Part shown: piece after piece, positions 34,311-50,115 of the stretch
How the letters are laid out: each line of letters starts with the position of its first letter
Numbering within the stretch: the first letter of the stretch is position 1
Assembly (NCBI RefSeq): GCF_937873725.1
Contig: NZ_CALMYY010000101.1
Span: 49,600-113,599, forward strand
Source of the DNA: an uncultured Dietzia sp.
Lineage (GTDB): Bacteria; Actinomycetota; Actinomycetes; Mycobacteriales; Mycobacteriaceae
Direction of reading: 5' to 3'
Length of the DNA stretch: 64,000 nt
The notes under the pieces: model-generated
Databases searched by the model: none
What the model saw: only the letters and a program-made list of their open reading frames with translations
Told to the model about the DNA's origin: nothing
Position numbers and translations under genes: made by a program

Positions 34311-35105
34311 TCAGTCCCCGTCCCCGAACCGCGCGGGCACCCCGAAGGCGGCCCGGCGGGAGGCGCGCCGGAGCGCGCCGAGCACCGCCGTGGCGGTCAC
34401 CGCGATGAGGATCCCGGTGAACACCGCGCGGCCCAGATCCCATCCCATCGAGGTGGAGAGGGTGAACAGGACGAAGCGGTGGAGGTTCTCCGCGACGGGG
34501 GCTCCGGCGACGAAGGACACGGCGGTGTCCGGACCGATCGTGAACGGCCAGAACGACAGGTTCATGAGGAACCCGTAGCCGAACGCCGCCACCGCTCCGT
34601 ACATCACGAGGAGCAGCACCTCGGCGCGCCCGCGGACGCGGGGGAGCAGGCCCGCGCCGAGCCCGACCCAGGACGCGGCGAGCATCTGGAACGGCAGCCA
34701 CGGTCCGACCCCGCCGGTGAGCAACGCCGAGGCGAACAGGGTGGTCGAACCGAGGACGAATCCGAAGGCGGGGCCGAACACGCGCCCGCCGAGGATGAGG
34801 ACGAAGAAGACGGACTCGAAGCCGGCCGTGCCCGCACCGAGAGGGCGGACCGCGGCCCCCACCGCGGTGAGGACGCCGAGCATCGCCACCGCCTTGACGT
34901 CGAGCCCGCCCTCGGCGATCTCGGCGAGCACCACCGCGATGAGCAGCGGCAGGCAGAGGGCGAAGAACAGGGGAGCCGCGGCGTCGCCGGAGAAGGTGGA
35001 CCCCGGCCCGACGAGCAGCGGCCAGAGGAACATCGCCAACCCGGTCAGCGCGACCAGGACCAACGCGACGACCGACCGGGGGCGAAGCGGCACGACGGGC
35101 CTCAT
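34311..35105 (-). CDS. ECF transporter S component (substrate-binding membrane subunit, probably for cobalamin)
   Basis: A 264-residue integral membrane protein with about six helices (VVALVLVALTGLAMFLWPLL, FFALCLPLLIAVVLAEIA, VKAVAMLGVLTAVGAAVRPLG, GTTLFASALLTGGVGPWLPF-like). The LGGRVFGPAFGFVLGSTTLFASALLTGGVGPWLPF region (read in pieces) with FQMLAASWVGLGAGLLP is typical of ECF S components. It is the last gene of a five-gene overlapping operon with T and ATPase components, so it is a dedicated (group I style) system. Specificity for vitamin B12 is inferred from the upstream cobalamin riboswitch and the transcobalamin-like neighbours, not from the protein itself. Its ATG overlaps the ATPase stop (ATGA). 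Confidence 0.85.
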   Translation of the reverse strand: MRPVVPLRPRSVVALVLVALTGLAMFLWPLLVGPGSTFSGDAAAPLFFALCLPLLIAVVLAEIAEGGLDVKAVAMLGVLTAVGAAVRPLGAGTAGFESVFFVLILGGRVFGPAFGFVLGSTTLFASALLTGGVGPWLPFQMLAASWVGLGAGLLPRVRGRAEVLLLVMYGAVAAFGYGFLMNLSFWPFTIGPDTAVSFVAGAPVAENLHRFVLFTLSTSMGWDLGRAVFTGILIAVTATAVLGALRRASRRAAFGVPARFGDGD

Positions 35106-36832
35106 CGCGGACCGCCGGGGAGCGCCGCCTCGACGTCGGCGAGGGTGAGCCACCGGCTGTCGTCCTCCACCCCCGAGGTGATCTTGGCCACCTGGGGAGC
35201 GTAGGCGGGGGAGCCCGCGAGGATGTCCGTGGCGGGACCGTCGGCGACGATCTCGCCCGCGGCCATGACGAGCACCCGGTCCGCGCACGACGCCGCGAAC
35301 TCCACGTCGTGGGTGGCCACCACGACGCAGTGGCCGGTCGCGGCCAGGTGCCGGAGGGCCGAGGACAACGCGGCCTTGGCGGTGTAGTCCAGGCCCCGGG
35401 TGGGCTCGTCGAGGAGGATCACCCCGGGCCGCGCGGTGAGCTGGATCGCCAGCACGAGGGACAGCCGCTGGCCCTCCGAGAGGTCGCGCGGATGGAGCTC
35501 GTCCGGCACCCCCGGGGCGAGGGTGTCCAGGGTCCGCCGGGTGGTCCCCGGGTCGGAGCCGGTCTCGGCGTCGGAGGCGGCGAGCTCCCGGGCGACCGTC
35601 GGGTGGCACAGCAGGTCGGACGGCGACTGAGGGACCAGCCCGACGAGGCGGCGGCGCGTCGGCGCCGGGAGATCACGCGGGTCGGTGGCCCCGGGATCGC
35701 CACCGGGCACCCGCACCCGCCCTCCCGTCCGCCGCCCCGTGCCCTGCAGCGCCCACAGGAGCGTGGACTTGCCGCAGCCGTTGCGTCCCATGAGGGCGCA
35801 GACCCGGCCGGGGTCCAGGCTGAGGTCGACGCGGTCGACGGCGCGCACCTCGCCGAAGTCGACGACGATCCCGTCGGCGCGCAGGGCCGGTGTGCCGGAG
35901 CACCCGCGGCCGGCTCCGGCTCGGGCTCCGGACCCGCTCGGAGCGGGCTCCTCGGAGTCGAAGAGCTCCCGGCGCAGGCCGGTCCCGACTCGGCGGGCGT
36001 CGCGGATGGACAGCGGCAGCGGACTCCATCCGGCCCACCGACCCAGTTGGACCACGGGTGGGGCCACATCGCTCGAGCTCATCACGGTACGGGGATCACC
36101 CACGAGGACCCGGCCGTCCGGGCCGACATGGGCGATCCGGTCGACGTACTGCAGGACGCGCTCGATTCGGTGCTCGGCGATCACCACGGTCACGCCGAGG
36201 TCGTGGGCGAGCCGGGTGACCGTGGACAGGACGTCCTCCGCGCCGTTGGGGTCCAGGGCGGATGTCGGTTCGTCGAGCACGACGAGGCCGGGCCGCGTGG
36301 TGAGGACGGCACCGAGCGCGACGCGCTGCTGCTGGCCACCCGAGAGTTCGGCGAGCGGGACGTCGCGCAGTTCGGCGATGCCGAGCAGGTCGAGGGTCTC
36401 CTCGACCCGCTTGCGCATGAGGGCGCGGCCGAGTCCCAGCTGCTCCATCCCGTAGGCGAGTTCCTCCTCGACGGTGTCGGTGACGAACCCCGAGATCGGG
36501 TCCTGCCCCACCACCCCCACCACGTCGGCCAGCGTGCGGGGCGGATGGGCGCGGGTGTCCCGGCCGAGCACCCGGACGGTCCCGGACAGGCGGCCGCCCG
36601 TGAAGTGCGGGACCGCCCCGGTCATCGCCCCCAGCAGGGTCGACTTGCCGACCCCGGTGCGGCCGATCACGAGCAGGATCTCGCCCTCGTCGAGGCTGAG
36701 GCGGACGTCGCGCAGGACGGGTGGGATGAGCCTGCCGTCGTGCTCGTACTCGACGGTGACCCGGTCCAGCTCGAGGACGGGGTCGGTCGACCACGGGGTC
36801 CGGCCGGTCCGGAATGAGGGGGCGTCAGACAC
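35102..36832 (-). CDS. ECF transporter ATP-binding protein, fused A and A' ATPases
   Basis: A 576-residue fusion of two ABC ATPase domains, the EcfA/EcfA' pair. The first has Walker A GRTGVGKSTLL, signature LSGGQQQR and Walker B LVVLDEPTSALD with switch His in IAEHR. The second (from about residue 340) has Walker A GRNGCGKSTLL, a degenerate signature LSEGQRLSL, Walker B VILLDEPTRGLD and switch His in ATHD. It powers uptake with the T and S components. It starts at GTG 36832, overlapping the T-component gene by 8 nt, and ends overlapping the S gene. Confidence 0.92.
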   Translation of the reverse strand: MSDAPSFRTGRTPWSTDPVLELDRVTVEYEHDGRLIPPVLRDVRLSLDEGEILLVIGRTGVGKSTLLGAMTGAVPHFTGGRLSGTVRVLGRDTRAHPPRTLADVVGVVGQDPISGFVTDTVEEELAYGMEQLGLGRALMRKRVEETLDLLGIAELRDVPLAELSGGQQQRVALGAVLTTRPGLVVLDEPTSALDPNGAEDVLSTVTRLAHDLGVTVVIAEHRIERVLQYVDRIAHVGPDGRVLVGDPRTVMSSSDVAPPVVQLGRWAGWSPLPLSIRDARRVGTGLRRELFDSEEPAPSGSGARAGAGRGCSGTPALRADGIVVDFGEVRAVDRVDLSLDPGRVCALMGRNGCGKSTLLWALQGTGRRTGGRVRVPGGDPGATDPRDLPAPTRRRLVGLVPQSPSDLLCHPTVARELAASDAETGSDPGTTRRTLDTLAPGVPDELHPRDLSEGQRLSLVLAIQLTARPGVILLDEPTRGLDYTAKAALSSALRHLAATGHCVVVATHDVEFAASCADRVLVMAAGEIVADGPATDILAGSPAYAPQVAKITSGVEDDSRWLTLADVEAALPGGPR

Positions 36833-37991
36833 GGTGGGCCTCCTGGCGTTTGGGGGCCCCGCGCGACGGTCGCCTCGAGGCGGTCGGCGGGGGGGGCGGA
36901 GTGAGTAATCCCGGGAGCGCGGCCACGCCGAGACCGGCCAGGACGAGGACCGGCACCCCGGGTGCCGCCAGCGGGTACAGCGGCACGGACAGCGAGGAGG
37001 GATCGAGGTGAGCGGCCACGGCGGTGGCGGCGAGGGCCACCGCCCCGCAGGCGACCGTGACCCACTCGGGCCGGGCCCACGGGTCGCGCCGGTAGGTCGT
37101 GACGGTACGGCGGCGACCGGCCAGCGCGAGCCCCCCGGCGGCGGCGGCGAGTCCGGCACACAGGAGCGGGATCCCCACCTCGGCGGGCAGGGTCCCGTCG
37201 AGGACCACGTAGGTCCCCACGCAGGCGCCGCACAGCCCGGTGAGGGTGAGCGCCGCGGTGAGACGGCGTTCGGCGGCGGGCGTCCGGGCGCGGCGCCCGT
37301 AGCCGCGGGCATCCATGGAGGCGGCCAGTCGGAGCGAACGGTCGAGGGTGTCCTGAAGGACGGGAAGGGCGGTGCGCCCGAACGCGCGGGGGCCCCGCGC
37401 CGGTTCCCCGCGCAGCGCCCGGGCGTGGCGGACCCGGAACACCGACTCGACCAGCTGCGGCGCGACCGACACGGCGATGACCAGGGCGGTACCGACCTCG
37501 CCGAGGGCCGACGGGAGGGACCGGACGAGGCGGCGCGGGTTGGCCAGGGAGTTGGCCGCACCGACCGCCACGAGAATGACGGCGAGACGGGCCCCCGCGA
37601 GAGCCGCCCCGACCAGCCCCTCGAGCATGACGGGCCCGAGGACCGTGATCCCCGCCGCCCAGTCCGGGAGCTCGACCTCGGGCAGCGGGAGGACCAGGAT
37701 CTCCCCGGTCTTGAGTCCCACCAGGACGTGCATGACCACGCGGATGGCGATCACGACGCCGGCCAGGACCAGATAGAGCCGAAACGCCCGCGCCCACGGG
37801 GTGTCGAGGCGGCGGGCCGCCACCACGTAGCCGAGCACCGCGACGATCGTCGCCAGGACGACGGGGTTGGTGGTCATCCCGGCGATCCCGGCCAGGGACA
37901 GAGCCCAGATCCACCAGGCCCAGGGGTGGAGCGCCCGGCGCCGCGAGGTGCGGTGCCGGGCGCCCACGATCCCCGACGGGGTCGCGTTCAC
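36825..37991 (-). CDS. ECF transporter T component (EcfT/CbiQ family)
   Basis: A 388-residue membrane coupling subunit. Early helices are WAWWIWALSLAGIAGMTTN and VVLATIVAVLGYVVAARRL. The two cytosolic coupling-helix motifs that contact the ATPases appear as RHARALRG (near residue 210) and MDARGYGRR (near 240), matching the Ala-Arg-Gly type signatures. It is longer than usual EcfT (about 250-270) because of extra C-terminal helices (from about 260) and a Pro-rich tail. GTG 37991 overlaps the DUF4430 gene stop (GTGA). Confidence 0.88.
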   Translation of the reverse strand: MNATPSGIVGARHRTSRRRALHPWAWWIWALSLAGIAGMTTNPVVLATIVAVLGYVVAARRLDTPWARAFRLYLVLAGVVIAIRVVMHVLVGLKTGEILVLPLPEVELPDWAAGITVLGPVMLEGLVGAALAGARLAVILVAVGAANSLANPRRLVRSLPSALGEVGTALVIAVSVAPQLVESVFRVRHARALRGEPARGPRAFGRTALPVLQDTLDRSLRLAASMDARGYGRRARTPAAERRLTAALTLTGLCGACVGTYVVLDGTLPAEVGIPLLCAGLAAAAGGLALAGRRRTVTTYRRDPWARPEWVTVACGAVALAATAVAAHLDPSSLSVPLYPLAAPGVPVLVLAGLGVAALPGLLTPPPPPTASRRPSRGAPKRQEAHRV

Positions 37992-39013
37992 TGCCGGGAT
38001 CGGCGTGCCGCCACCGCGCCGGCCGCGACCAGCGCCGCCAGGAACCCGGCCGCACCCACGTACGGCCACGGGGAGATCCCGCCGCCGTCCGCGTTCTGCG
38101 CGAGGACCTCCTGGCCGACGGTGTCGGTCCCCGCGCCGGGGGCGGCGGCGAGCGCGTCCCCGCCGGGGGCGCCGCTCTCGTCGGTGACCTCGGCGGCGTC
38201 CGGGGCGGCGGGCAGGTCCGCGGGGACCGGCGTGTCCGGGCCGGCCGGTTGGCCCGGACGGGCAGGTTCGGCCGGGCCGGCCCGGGACCCCGCGTCGGCG
38301 ACCGGCGGCGCGCCGGTGCCCGCGTCGTCGGGGGGAGAGGCCGCGGCCCCGGCGTCCGGTCCTGCCGGCGCGCCTGCGAACCCGGCCCCGGGTCCGGGAC
38401 CGGCCGGGGGGCCGGCGTCCACCGCCGTCGGGGCCGGCGGCCGTGTCGTCGCCCTGGTGACCTGGTTGCCGCCGGACGGCGTGGTGGTCCGCGGCGGCGT
38501 CGACGAGCTGGACGGCCTCGTCGTGGCGACCTGGGTCCTCGGTGCGGTGGGAACGGACCCGGGACGGGCGCCGTCGCCGAACGCCCACCCCTCGACCGTG
38601 CCGGCGGCCGCCGTGCGTGCGGAGGCCCCGAGGGTGCTGTACTGCCAGGTCCCCCCGAGTGGGGCGTGATAATAGGCCCAGTACGAGTCGGCCGGGGGGG
38701 TCGTCACGCACGGGTCGGACGCCGGTGTGCCGTTGATGCGGCAGATGAACCCGGGCTGGGTCTGCACCATCGTCACGGAGAAGCCGGCACGCCGGAGGGT
38801 CGTCAGACCGTCCAGGCCCGCCGGCGCGCAACCCGTGCCCTGACCGGCCACGACCACCGTCACCTCGGTCACCGCGCAGGGGGTGGCCTGCGCCCGCGCC
38901 TGAGGCGCCGGGGCGACCACCCCGCAGAGGACCGCCACGGCGCCCGCCGCGAGCGCGGCGACGGGGACCTGTGAGAGGCGACGACGACGAGCGCCGCCAC
39001 TGCTGACCGTCAT
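37988..39013 (-). CDS. Membrane-anchored DUF4430 (transcobalamin C-terminal-like) protein
   Basis: A 341-residue predicted surface protein. An N-terminal signal peptide (SQVPVAALAAGAVAVLCGVV, cleaved near APQARAQA) leads to a domain at about residues 45-150 with the DUF4430 pattern: GLDGLTTLRRAGFSVTMVQT, GFICRINGTPASDPC, SYWAYYHAPLGGTWQYS and GTVEGWAFGDG. DUF4430 is the fold of the C-terminal half of animal intrinsic factor and transcobalamin. A long Pro/Ala/Gly-rich stalk (about 150-310) ends in one membrane helix (YVGAAGFLAALVAAGAVAA) and RRSRQ, so the domain is tethered outside the membrane. Its ATG overlaps the barrel gene stop (TGATG). I infer it helps capture vitamin B12 and hand it to the ECF transporter. 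Confidence 0.85.
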   Translation of the reverse strand: MTVSSGGARRRRLSQVPVAALAAGAVAVLCGVVAPAPQARAQATPCAVTEVTVVVAGQGTGCAPAGLDGLTTLRRAGFSVTMVQTQPGFICRINGTPASDPCVTTPPADSYWAYYHAPLGGTWQYSTLGASARTAAAGTVEGWAFGDGARPGSVPTAPRTQVATTRPSSSSTPPRTTTPSGGNQVTRATTRPPAPTAVDAGPPAGPGPGAGFAGAPAGPDAGAAASPPDDAGTGAPPVADAGSRAGPAEPARPGQPAGPDTPVPADLPAAPDAAEVTDESGAPGGDALAAAPGAGTDTVGQEVLAQNADGGGISPWPYVGAAGFLAALVAAGAVAARRSRQ

Positions 39014-40143
39014 CACAGACCCAGCGATCCCAGCGAGCCGGTCCCGGACGGGCCGCCCGCGCCCGCGCAGTCCAGCGCACCGGGAGCGGCGGCGTTCCCG
39101 GCCGCCGAGACGGTGACGTACGACTGGCCGGACAGGCCGACGGCGGCCTGCGCGGTGGTGCGCCGGACCTGGTCCGACGACTCGGTGGCGGCCAGGGCGG
39201 CGGCGTCGTAGGCGATCCCGCCCCGCAGCGCGGCGGGGGAGTCGCAGCCGAAGAACAGGGAGCCCAGGAACGAGCGGGCGCGGCCCGCGCGGGCCGTGTC
39301 GCCCGCGGCGGCGAACGCCGCGGCGGCCAGGCCCGTGCTGTTGCCGTTGGGGGCCGAGGTCGGGCCCGCGCCGCCGACGCCGCCGTCGGCGCCCATCCGG
39401 TCGCCGAGGTAGGCGACGGCCTCGGCCACGTCGGGGTCGGTCCGGTCGGACGCGGCGACCAGCGCCTGGACGGCCATGGCGGTGGCGTCCGGATCGGAGA
39501 CACACGGTGTGGTGCCACCGAGGTCCAAGCGGAACCCGCCGTCCTGGCACTGCTGATCGCGCAGGAAGTCGACCGCGGACGCGGCGGGGCCGCGGTCGAC
39601 CCGGCTCAGGCCGATGATCGCCCACGACTGGCCGAGGGTGTTGGAGTAGTCGCCCCACTCGGAGACGTCGCTGAACCTGCCCGACGGGGTGAGGGTCGAG
39701 TCGAGGCGGGCCACCAGGTCCACGCCGCCGAACGAGGTCGGCGGCACGCCCTGCGAGGCGGCCACGACGAGCAGCTTGCCCGTGGCACCGGCGTAGGTCT
39801 CGCCCCCGGCGCCGATGTAGCCGCCGACGTTCTGCTGCAGGTAGGCCGTCGTGGCGTCCGCCTGGGCGCGGCCCGCGCCGATCGCGTTGAGCGCCAGCAC
39901 GGCGTCCGCGGACAACCCGTGATCCGGGTAGTCGATGCCGTCGAAGGTCGTGGAGAAGTGGTCGCCGCCCGAGGCGAGTTGGGCGGAGAGGAACCCGGAG
40001 ACCGAGGAGAGCTCGCCGGCGTCCAGCGGGGCGGCGGCGGAGGTGGCGACGCCGGTCGACAGGGCGACGCCCACGGTGACGAGGACCGCGCTCGTCCGTG
40101 AGAGCAGCGCCCGGCGACGGGGTGCGTGGGTCAGGGTGGTCAT
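39013..40143 (-). CDS. Secreted alpha/alpha-barrel protein with prenyltransferase-like repeats (transcobalamin N-terminal-like)
   Basis: A 376-residue secreted protein. The signal peptide is MTTLTHAPRRRALLSRTSAV followed by a hydrophobic core and ATSAAA. The mature part is built of helical repeats of the squalene-cyclase/prenyltransferase type, for example QSWAIIGLSRVDRGPAASAV, FLRDQQCQDGGFRLD, DATAMAVQALVAASDR and NSTGLAAAAFAAAGD. This alpha6/alpha6 barrel is also the N-terminal domain of intrinsic factor and transcobalamin; no enzyme motif (DCTAE or DDTAV) is seen. With no anchor it should be soluble, held only by a ligand or partner. ATG 40143 is chosen because it gives a clean signal peptide and lies downstream of the riboswitch; an ATG at 40230 would start within the leader RNA. 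Confidence 0.83.
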   Translation of the reverse strand: MTTLTHAPRRRALLSRTSAVLVTVGVALSTGVATSAAAPLDAGELSSVSGFLSAQLASGGDHFSTTFDGIDYPDHGLSADAVLALNAIGAGRAQADATTAYLQQNVGGYIGAGGETYAGATGKLLVVAASQGVPPTSFGGVDLVARLDSTLTPSGRFSDVSEWGDYSNTLGQSWAIIGLSRVDRGPAASAVDFLRDQQCQDGGFRLDLGGTTPCVSDPDATAMAVQALVAASDRTDPDVAEAVAYLGDRMGADGGVGGAGPTSAPNGNSTGLAAAAFAAAGDTARAGRARSFLGSLFFGCDSPAALRGGIAYDAAALAATESSDQVRRTTAQAAVGLSGQSYVTVSAAGNAAAPGALDCAGAGGPSGTGSLGSLGL

Positions 40144-40154
40144 GAGCCGTGAGG

Positions 40155-40168
40155 GCCTTTCGCAAGGC
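40155..40168 (-). promoter_or_regulatory. Hairpin holding the ribosome site of the barrel gene
   Basis: GCCTT-GCGA-AAGGC: a 5-bp stem closed by a GNRA-type tetraloop that buries the AAAGG ribosome site 12 nt before the ATG at 40143. It is a plausible expression platform for the upstream riboswitch. Confidence 0.5.
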
Positions 40169-40239
40169 GGACGCCCACGGCACGACCGATCGCCCCCGAC
40201 GGGGATCCCGGAAGCTCCGTACCGTGTCATCCGACGGTG

Positions 40240-40367
40240 TGGAGCCGAAACGTCGTTCCTCGGGCATTCCGACTCGTCGCGTCGAGCGCGACCTACGGTT
40301 GCGGGCCAGTGCCGGGTTTTGACCGGCTTCCCCCGATGGAGAACGTGCGGCGTGGCCTGATGGCCAC
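40240..40367 (-). promoter_or_regulatory. Cobalamin (adenosylcobalamin) riboswitch
   Basis: On the minus strand the leader contains GGGGGAAGCCGGTC (40334-40321), then AAAACCCGGCACTGG and CCCGCAACCGTAGG (40305-40292), and finally GAGTCGGAATGCCCG (40275-40261). These are the conserved cobalamin-riboswitch core blocks in correct order and spacing, including the actinobacterial form of the B12 box. Flanking bases can close the outer stem (CGTTC near 40345 with GAACG near 40256). It lies between a TACTCT promoter element and the start of the five-gene B12-type uptake operon, which it should shut down when cobalamin is plentiful. Confidence 0.9.
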
Positions 40368-40373
40368 ATCCGG

Positions 40374-40379
40374 AGAGTA
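40374..40379 (-). promoter_or_regulatory. -10 element for the riboswitch-controlled operon
   Basis: TACTCT on the minus strand. With 7 nt spacing, transcription would start near 40366, right before the GTGGCC-ATCA-GGCCAC hairpin and the cobalamin aptamer. Confidence 0.55.
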
Positions 40380-40432
40380 GATCATGGCGGGGCGCGGCGG
40401 CCGGGCAGGTCTCGGCCGCCGGCGATCCGGCG

Positions 40433-40438
40433 TACGTT
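40433..40438 (+). promoter_or_regulatory. -10 element of the leaderless FAD-linked oxidase gene
   Basis: TACGTT, 7 nt, then ATG at 40446. It is divergent from the B12 operon promoter, about 55 bp away. Confidence 0.6.
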
Positions 40439-40445
40439 CGGTGCC

Positions 40446-41834
40446 ATGAGCGACCCCTCCGCCGGAGCGTCCCCGACCGCCCTCGACGACCTGCGCGCCC
40501 GCCTCGGCGGCGCGAGCGTGGTCACCGACCCCGACGTGCTCCAGGGCTACCGCCAGGACTGGGCCAAGGCGCCCGACCCGGGAATGCCGCTGGCGGTGGT
40601 GAGGGCCCGCACCACGGAGGACGTCCAGGAGGTCATGCGCTGGGCGAGCGAGCACGGCGTCCCGGTGGTGCCCCGCGGCGCGGGCTCCGGCCTGTCCGGG
40701 GGCGCAACGGCCGTAGAGAGCGGGATCGTGCTCTCCACCGAGCTCATGCGCGACGTCGTCGTCGACCCCGTCACCCGCACCGCGACCGTCCAGCCTGGGC
40801 TGCTCAACGCCGAGGTCAAGCGCGCCGTCGCCGAGCACGGGCTCTGGTACCCGCCGGATCCGTCGTCGTACGAGATCTGCTCGATCGGCGGCAACATCGC
40901 CACCAACGCCGGCGGCCTGTGCTGCGTGAAATACGGGGTGACCACCGACTACGTGCTCGGGCTGACGGTGGTGCTGGCCGACGGCACCGCGGTCCGGCTC
41001 GGCGGCGCCAGGCTCAAGGACACCGCCGGGCTGAGCCTGACCAAGCTGTTCGTCGGAAGCGAGGGCACGCTCGGCATCGTCACCGAGATCATCCTCCGGC
41101 TCCTGCCGGAGCAGCCCCCGCGCTCCACCGTCGTGGGCATCTTCCCCGACGTGGTGGCGTGCAGCGAGGCGGTGCTCGCGATCACGCGCCGGATCCGCCC
41201 GGCGATGCTCGAGTTCATGGACACCGTCTCCATCCGCGCCGTCGAGGCGGACCTGCGGATGGGCCTGGACACCACCGCCGGGGCGATGCTGCTGGCGCAG
41301 TCCGACCTCACCGGCGCCGACCGGCAGGCAGAGACGGAGTTCATGGCCGAGGCGTTCCGCGCGCACGGCGCCACGGAGGTCGTGTCCACCGACGACCCCG
41401 ACGAGGGCGAGCAGTTCACGGTCGCGCGTCGGGCCGCGTTCACGAGCCTGGGCAAGATCGGCTCGCTGCTGCTCGAGGACGTGGGCGTCCCGCTGCCCGC
41501 CCTGCCGCGGCTGGTCGCGGGCATCGAGGAGATCTCCGCGCGGCTCGACGTCCCGATCGCGCTGGTCGCCCACGCCGGGGACGGCAACACCCACCCCATC
41601 ATCGTGCTGTCCGACGACGACCCCGACCTCGCCGCCCGCGCCCAGCAGGCGTTCGGCGAGGTGATGGACCTGGCCATCTCGATGGGCGGGACGATCACCG
41701 GGGAGCACGGCGTCGGCAGGCTCAAGGCCCCGTGGCTGCCGGCCCAGCTCGGGCAGGACGTCATGGCCCTGAGCCGCCGGATCAAGGACGCGATCGACCC
41801 CCAGGGGATCCTCAACCCCGGCGCGATGTTCTAG
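40446..41834 (+). CDS. FAD-binding oxidase, glycolate oxidase GlcD / D-lactate dehydrogenase family
   Basis: A 462-residue flavoenzyme of the VAO/PCMH superfamily. The FAD domain has VVPRGAGSGLSGGATAVESG near residue 75, CSIGGNIATNAGGLCCVKYG near 145, and LFVGSEGTLGIVTEIIL near 205. The C-terminal cap domain has HAGDGNTHP and the metal/active-site ITGEHGVGRLK near 420, then the final DPQGILNPGAMF. It should oxidise a 2-hydroxy acid such as glycolate or D-lactate; the exact substrate is not resolved. There is no GlcE/GlcF partner next to it. The stop is close to the convergent metal-regulator gene. Confidence 0.9.
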   Translation: MSDPSAGASPTALDDLRARLGGASVVTDPDVLQGYRQDWAKAPDPGMPLAVVRARTTEDVQEVMRWASEHGVPVVPRGAGSGLSGGATAVESGIVLSTELMRDVVVDPVTRTATVQPGLLNAEVKRAVAEHGLWYPPDPSSYEICSIGGNIATNAGGLCCVKYGVTTDYVLGLTVVLADGTAVRLGGARLKDTAGLSLTKLFVGSEGTLGIVTEIILRLLPEQPPRSTVVGIFPDVVACSEAVLAITRRIRPAMLEFMDTVSIRAVEADLRMGLDTTAGAMLLAQSDLTGADRQAETEFMAEAFRAHGATEVVSTDDPDEGEQFTVARRAAFTSLGKIGSLLLEDVGVPLPALPRLVAGIEEISARLDVPIALVAHAGDGNTHPIIVLSDDDPDLAARAQQAFGEVMDLAISMGGTITGEHGVGRLKAPWLPAQLGQDVMALSRRIKDAIDPQGILNPGAMF

Positions 41835-49941: not shown

Positions 49942-49994
49942 AGGGGCGGAGCCCCTCCTCTCGTCAGAAGGGTCCGGCCGCATCACGACAGCGG

Positions 49995-50115
49995 ACCCGC
50001 GCTTGCCTGGTCACCCGGACGGGTGTCGGCCAGGTCGTCTCCCGGGGCACCCCACCGCGGTGGAGGGTTGCCGTCCAGCAAGCCGGGGCTTGATGCTGGA
50101 ACTCATGACCTGGGG
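49995..50115 (-). promoter_or_regulatory. SAM-IV riboswitch upstream of metY-metX
   Basis: On the minus strand, CCAGGTCATGAGTTCCAGC (50113-50095) begins the aptamer. TCAAGCCCCGGCTTGCTGG, CGGCAACCCTCCACCGCGG and TGGGGTGCCCCGGG follow, and ACGACCTGG closes the P1 stem. This block order is the actinobacterial SAM-IV motif, also found before methionine genes in mycobacteria. Binding of SAM should reduce metYX expression. Confidence 0.88.

Follow-up and report, generated by a model that had tools for sequence, protein, structure and literature searches.

The stretch of DNA analysed here (the window: 64,000 nucleotides of contig NZ_CALMYY010000101.1 from an uncultured Dietzia sp.) carries a minus-strand operon of five genes, which encode a barrel chain, a beta chain and the T, fused A-A' and S components of an energy-coupling factor (ECF) transporter. 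We consider it probable that this operon specifies an ECF importer for vitamin B12 or a closely related corrinoid, along with a likely surface receptor of two chains: a tethered beta chain, predicted to have the transcobalamin-type fold, would hold the ligand against a partner that is predicted to be an alpha/alpha barrel. The evidence consists of the gene order and its overlaps, a riboswitch-like leader, the predicted folds of both surface proteins and the co-occurrence of the beta domain with one S-component subfamily among 396 genomes of the phylum. An earlier, sequence-only reading had proposed that the two surface proteins clamp B12 between them and was aware of no described pair of this kind; it is partly supported, being right in kind and overstated in its novelty and in treating the clamp as obligatory.

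The proposed mechanism would begin with corrinoid scarcity, under which the leader would permit expression of the operon. Outside the cell, barrel and beta chain would then enclose a single corrinoid. Anchorage of the beta chain next to the importer would allow the loaded complex to hand its ligand to the S component, after which ATP hydrolysis by A-A' would drive import. The tethered beta chain and the ECF transporter would form the conserved core, with the barrel as a frequent and optional partner, which may occur free, anchored to membrane or wall, or as a fusion with a beta domain. A more ambitious form of this proposal, to which we give somewhat less than an even chance, sees in the operon an actinobacterial ECF transporter with a true extracellular substrate-binding partner. 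This partner would be a two-piece homologue of intrinsic factor whose tethered beta chain docks while the barrel closes over B12, such that catching the ligand and passing it to the S component become one event; animals would have the same folds fused.

An overlapping operon behind a riboswitch-like leader

The five genes are chained end to start by overlaps in the order barrel (39013-40143), beta chain (37988-39013), T (36825-37991, GTG start), A-A' (35102-36832, GTG start) and S (34311-35105). The barrel and beta-chain genes share 1 nucleotide in a TGATG junction (39015-39011), the beta-chain and T genes 4 nucleotides in GTGA (37991-37988), the T and A-A' genes 8 nucleotides (36832-36825), and the A-A' and S genes meet at ATGA (35105-35102). 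The coordinates bear out the gene order and every junction overlap that had been read from the sequence.

Upstream of the operon, on the same strand, lies a candidate adenosylcobalamin (AdoCbl) riboswitch aptamer at 40210-40358. An E-value scan of 40100-40500 gave this single match, which covers the full length of the AdoCbl model RF01482 with 40.3 bits and an E-value of 3.9e-6, under the Rfam gathering score of 50 bits. At the same place, the whole-genome scan gave RF00174 26.1 bits (C101:89861-89932), under its gathering score of 31.5. A scan of the whole window at gathering thresholds did not call a cobalamin riboswitch; its sole element was a strong SAM-IV riboswitch elsewhere (49994-50110, minus strand, 109.9 bits). 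The earlier assignment of a cobalamin riboswitch stands as a full-length match and falls short of the score at which Rfam would call it. Between aptamer and start codon (40141-40209, minus strand), folding predicts a stem with a GAAAGG stretch that resembles a ribosome-binding site. This stem is suggestive only, as its minimum free energy of -39.7 kcal/mol does not differ significantly from that of shuffled sequences (z -1.08).

Leaders of related loci point in the same direction. Among 38 scanned leaders, which include two short contig-end stubs and exclude the contig-end leaders of L035 and L043 (140 and 78 nucleotides), 29 match the cobalamin clan at E<=0.01 on the strand of the operon, and one (L089) does so more weakly (E 0.28). 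Every match at E<=0.5 in these scans belongs to the cobalamin clan. No cobalamin match was found in the leaders of four loci with a fused ECF transporter, in the leader that precedes a lone beta gene (L108), in L088 or in either stub. Scans of 12 whole loci placed a cobalamin match upstream of the operon in seven (six at E<=0.0027, L079 at 0.035), and found none in L141 or the four fused-ECF loci; a norovirus-model match in the same scans, far under its cut-off score, was set aside as chance. With matches in 29 of 38 leaders, the homologues lie mostly under cobalamin-type rather than unrelated regulation, as the sequence-only reading expects.

Beyond the riboswitch-like element, a divergent gene (40446-41834) appears oxidase-like from its sequence. 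The genome around the window amounts to 3.1 Mb, and a barrel gene with 100% identity is present on a public Dietzia contig.

The beta chain and its predicted fold

The beta chain combines a signal-like N-terminus, a beta-grasp domain (residues 42-165; 38519-38890), a long linker rich in Pro and Ala and, towards the C-terminus, a hydrophobic stretch followed by an RRSRQ tail; here and below, proteins are termed secreted or membrane-anchored according to their N-termini and a hydrophobicity scan. Its domain is predicted to adopt the transcobalamin-type beta-grasp fold. In the fold comparison, the model matches transcobalamin, haptocorrin and intrinsic factor best, and match quality falls off clearly beyond the bacterial protein 3u7z; none of the Foldseek matches of the domain attains E 0.001. 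The model also contains the extra beta-hairpin that the transcobalamin clade has after the helix (helix 28-34, strands 39-41 and 49-52, then strand 71-77). This agrees with the earlier proposal that the second protein has the fold of the transcobalamin and intrinsic-factor beta domain.

Sequence comparison is far less telling. Pfam gave no match at E<=1 for the beta chain of the window, DUF4430 (PF14478) included; this family matches two of 50 relatives (best E 0.063) and nothing in the own genome. The label of a DUF4430 protein thus fails by sequence, while structure prediction backs the fold behind it. NCBIfam SCO2322 scores 21.4 bits with the whole protein and 25 bits with the domain, short of its cut-off of 85, and is matched by 45 of 50 beta domains at E<=0.01. 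Searches of PDB sequences with the beta domain or its profile yielded no transcobalamin, one search being dominated by the low-complexity linker.

The barrel chain

The barrel chain has a signal-like N-terminus, a C-terminus that reads GTGSLGSLGL and no membrane anchor that we could see, and it is a relative of the SCO2321 family (121 bits; curated cut-off 300). Its GSLG-type tail (39013-39045) is common to barrels and unanchored beta chains of close relatives (P0007, P0009, P0131-P0133). Structure prediction gives a confident alpha/alpha toroid. This part of the claim that the barrel is transcobalamin-like holds, whereas the toroid is not specific: the nearest solved folds are squalene-hopene cyclases, rat transcobalamin follows at Foldseek rank 46, and no transcobalamin is among the best 50 VIA matches listed. 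The window barrel has no match to PF01122, the eukaryotic cobalamin-binding protein family, which gives weak matches to three of 35 barrels (best E 2.1e-4). Conserved residues are only mildly enriched at the barrel mouth, which we do not take as evidence; a literature search for the residues with which transcobalamin contacts its ligand gave nothing. As a prediction, then, the barrel is a toroid, and its kinship to transcobalamin is not confirmed.

Squalene-hopene cyclases also head the sequence matches of the barrel, and these proteins could suggest a secreted terpene-cyclase-like or other toroid enzyme that has nothing to do with B12 capture and shares the operon by chance. Class II terpene cyclases of the squalene-hopene type carry the acid motif DxDD. 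In the window barrel this motif is absent and replaced by DPDAT, and many relatives have DxDT or NTT forms. Together with the signal-like N-terminus, the placement in cobalamin-riboswitch operons and the fusions with a beta domain described below, this makes an enzyme of that kind very improbable.

Co-occurrence across the phylum

We searched 396 genomes of the phylum with a beta-chain profile and obtained rows in 75; many rows covered the linker only (query about 153-298) and were dropped. Short or partial domain rows were also left out, among them those of G122, G293, G107, G161, G171 (second copy), G182, G193, G334, G352, G369 and G374. The remaining set, in which every locus has the beta domain itself, comprises 47 loci that come from 46 genomes, the own genome not counted. 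An S component lies within the fetched stretch of 40 of these loci, in agreement with the expectation that homologues are mostly found beside the same ECF transporter, and 32 of the 47 combine barrel, beta chain, T and S. A contig end truncates three of the seven loci without S (L039, L053, L074), L063 consists of a lone beta gene, and in L067, L070 and L071 barrel and beta chain are both present and the S component lies elsewhere in the genome. The T and S profiles used for these scans were grown on the same loci, which flatters their scores.

The converse search, a whole-genome search with an S-component alignment from 26 of these loci, delimits a subfamily with a phylum-wide tie to the beta chain. 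It found 73 of the 396 genomes at E<=1.1e-56, followed by a gap to 5.9e-34, and all 47 genomes with a confirmed beta domain fall within these 73. The other 26 divide into 17 with a beta domain beside S and nine in which a contig end cuts the locus. In nine of the 17 the domain has diverged, as the best-scoring stretch there takes in nothing but the C-terminal portion of its profile (about 74-120 of 122). Among the genomes listed above for their short or partial rows, nine belong to the 73, and G122 and G293 do not. The genome lists from both searches were tallied by hand for Fisher tests.

Within the genus Dietzia, the beta domain occurs in two of 23 genomes, both of one species. The window barrel is closer to loci of the same class (L050 and L049, 47 and 42% identity) than to L033 of the same order (38-39%). 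These barrel identities and the restriction of the domain to one species, in a genus most of whose genomes keep CbiC, may reflect lateral gain.

Fusion, anchoring and absence of the barrel

Barrel and beta domain lie within 3 kb of each other in 32 of the first 40 loci. They are also found in one chain, barrel first, in P0148 and in single open reading frames (ORFs) of L036, L040, L042 and L044. Such proximity and fusions point to joint action; transcobalamin sandwiches B12 between its two domains (PMC1796856). In L002, a metagenome-assembled genome of the Intrasporangiaceae, the beta domain precedes the barrel, opposite to the arrangement in animals, within an ORF that the contig end truncates.

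Nine loci, on the other hand, have a beta chain and an ECF transporter and no barrel alongside. The barrel is absent from the whole genome in L066, L068, L069 and L072, and from the fetched stretch in L128, L129, L133, L078 and L079; nor is one seen in L063 or in L074, which is cut on the ECF side. Five of the nine carry a cobalamin-riboswitch match ahead of the beta gene (four at E<=0.0027, one at 0.035), and four do not. A clamp of barrel and beta chain can therefore not be obligatory, a point on which the earlier reading goes too far. One could go further and regard the tethered beta chain alone as the corrinoid receptor of the ECF transporter, leaving the barrel an accessory for storage, wall-anchored pre-capture or ligand processing that takes no part in a joint clamp. 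The barrel-less loci would fit this, and so would L036, L040 and L042, in which a barrel fused to its own beta domain coexists with a separate tethered beta chain. Given the frequent proximity and the several fusions, we hold this alternative to be unlikely, if the most serious of those considered. The most economical interpretation gives the tethered beta chain the task of serving the importer and the barrel that of improving capture.

The anchoring of the two chains, surveyed in L033-L072, differs in regularity. Thirty loci have a separate T gene, and in all of them but L033 the neighbouring beta chain carries a hydrophobic stretch at its C-terminus (29 of 30; score 1.39 or more). Barrels vary: they may be free, as in the window, membrane-anchored, or equipped with S-layer domains (L034, and fused in L044) or cell-wall-binding domains (L036, L040 and L042, all fused). 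The earlier idea that ligand binding itself recruits a soluble barrel to the membrane would describe at most one version of the system, since some barrels are anchored already.

In the four fused-ECF loci (L066, L068, L069, L072), a single ORF of about 1000-1200 residues encodes T, both ATPases and S. The beta chain beside it is lipoprotein-like, with a lipobox instead of the C-terminal hydrophobic stretch. These loci could encode one-polypeptide ECF transporters with a different ligand.

The transporter, its ligand and the B12 physiology of the host

The T component matches CbiQ (PF02361) with 35.5 bits against a cut-off of 25, and A-A' matches ABC_tran in two stretches. The S component scores 24.8 bits with ECF_trnsprt (PF12822; E 2.5e-5), below the cut-off of 30.7, and a search of solved chains with its profile gave no sequence match at E<=1.

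The own genome encodes the methionine synthase MetH and methylmalonyl-CoA mutase. CbiC, the only synthesis marker sought, was not found in it. Across the genus, CbiC is present in 17 of the 23 genomes and missing from both that have the beta domain, one of which is just 83% complete; the other four without it are 64-85% complete. Because neither beta-domain genome has CbiC, the uptake operon accompanies a missing synthesis marker in this species. A second, stronger cobalamin riboswitch match in the own genome (L121, C77:51498-51557) neighbours genes that resemble BtuF and BtuC, which makes two B12 routes likely in this organism.

These observations also bear on the identity of the ligand, which might be cobinamide, another corrinoid precursor or cobalt instead of B12. 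Transporters for cobalt and precursors are likewise controlled by cobalamin riboswitches (PMC3766115), CbrUVT, among listed B12 uptake systems, is annotated for cobyrinate diamide uptake (PMC8123684), and an S component without a detectable solved relative leaves room for such a ligand. Cobalt or early precursors alone would, however, probably be useless for de novo synthesis in a genome without CbiC, as far as this one gene can tell, and structure prediction gives the beta chain the fold of B12-binding beta domains. We thus rate a related ligand as improbable.

Comparison with known systems

Demonstrated B12 import by an ECF transporter is represented by ECF-CbrT of Lactobacillus delbrueckii (PMC5997447). 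The window operon shares its architecture and, by prediction, its cobalamin import, and differs from it in adding two surface proteins and in an S component whose profile matches no solved chain. Passages of the same paper describe the S component itself as the substrate-binding protein of ECF transporters; a conserved, B12-regulated ECF transporter with a dedicated surface receptor built from the intrinsic-factor folds, if confirmed, would change this picture. In acI actinobacteria, ECF modules behind cobalamin riboswitches are predicted cobalamin transporters, and passages of PMC5301498 on them do not mention barrel or beta chains. In the open-licence papers searched, we found no description of a two-chain form in actinobacteria, of its tie to an S subfamily or of the barrel-less state. 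The NCBIfam families SCO2321 and SCO2322, to which barrel and beta chain are related below both curated cut-offs, state no function in their names; if our proposal is true, this actinobacterial pair would gain a testable one.

In animal transcobalamin and intrinsic factor, both domains reside in one chain, while the window has them in separate genes. Unlike transcobalamin, haptocorrin and intrinsic factor, the Dietzia system would thus consist of two chains, one of them membrane-tethered, with an ECF importer as receptor, and its beta domain has no detectable sequence similarity to solved members of the three. The architecture of the animal B12 carriers would then exist in split, fused and barrel-less states.

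The closest precedent, in view of which the sequence-only reading overstates the novelty, is found in Burroughs et al. (2007; PMC1796856), parts of which propose that bacterial proteins with a toroid and an SLBB domain, and operons with CbiO and CbiQ, serve in B12 scavenging. The clade is named there from low-GC Gram-positives, planctomycetes and, less often, euryarchaea, with toroid and SLBB domain fused in one chain. Its extracellular toroid and beta-grasp modules recur, by prediction, in the window, as do the CbiO-like ATPase and CbiQ-like membrane protein that mark the operons of the transcobalamin-like SLBB clade. What distinguishes the Dietzia-phylum systems from the fusions described in these parts is that the folds are separate chains, too diverged for the DUF4430 model, and come with a tied S subfamily and riboswitch leaders. 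The 2007 proposal of bacterial transcobalamin-like scavengers thereby becomes directly testable in culturable actinobacteria.

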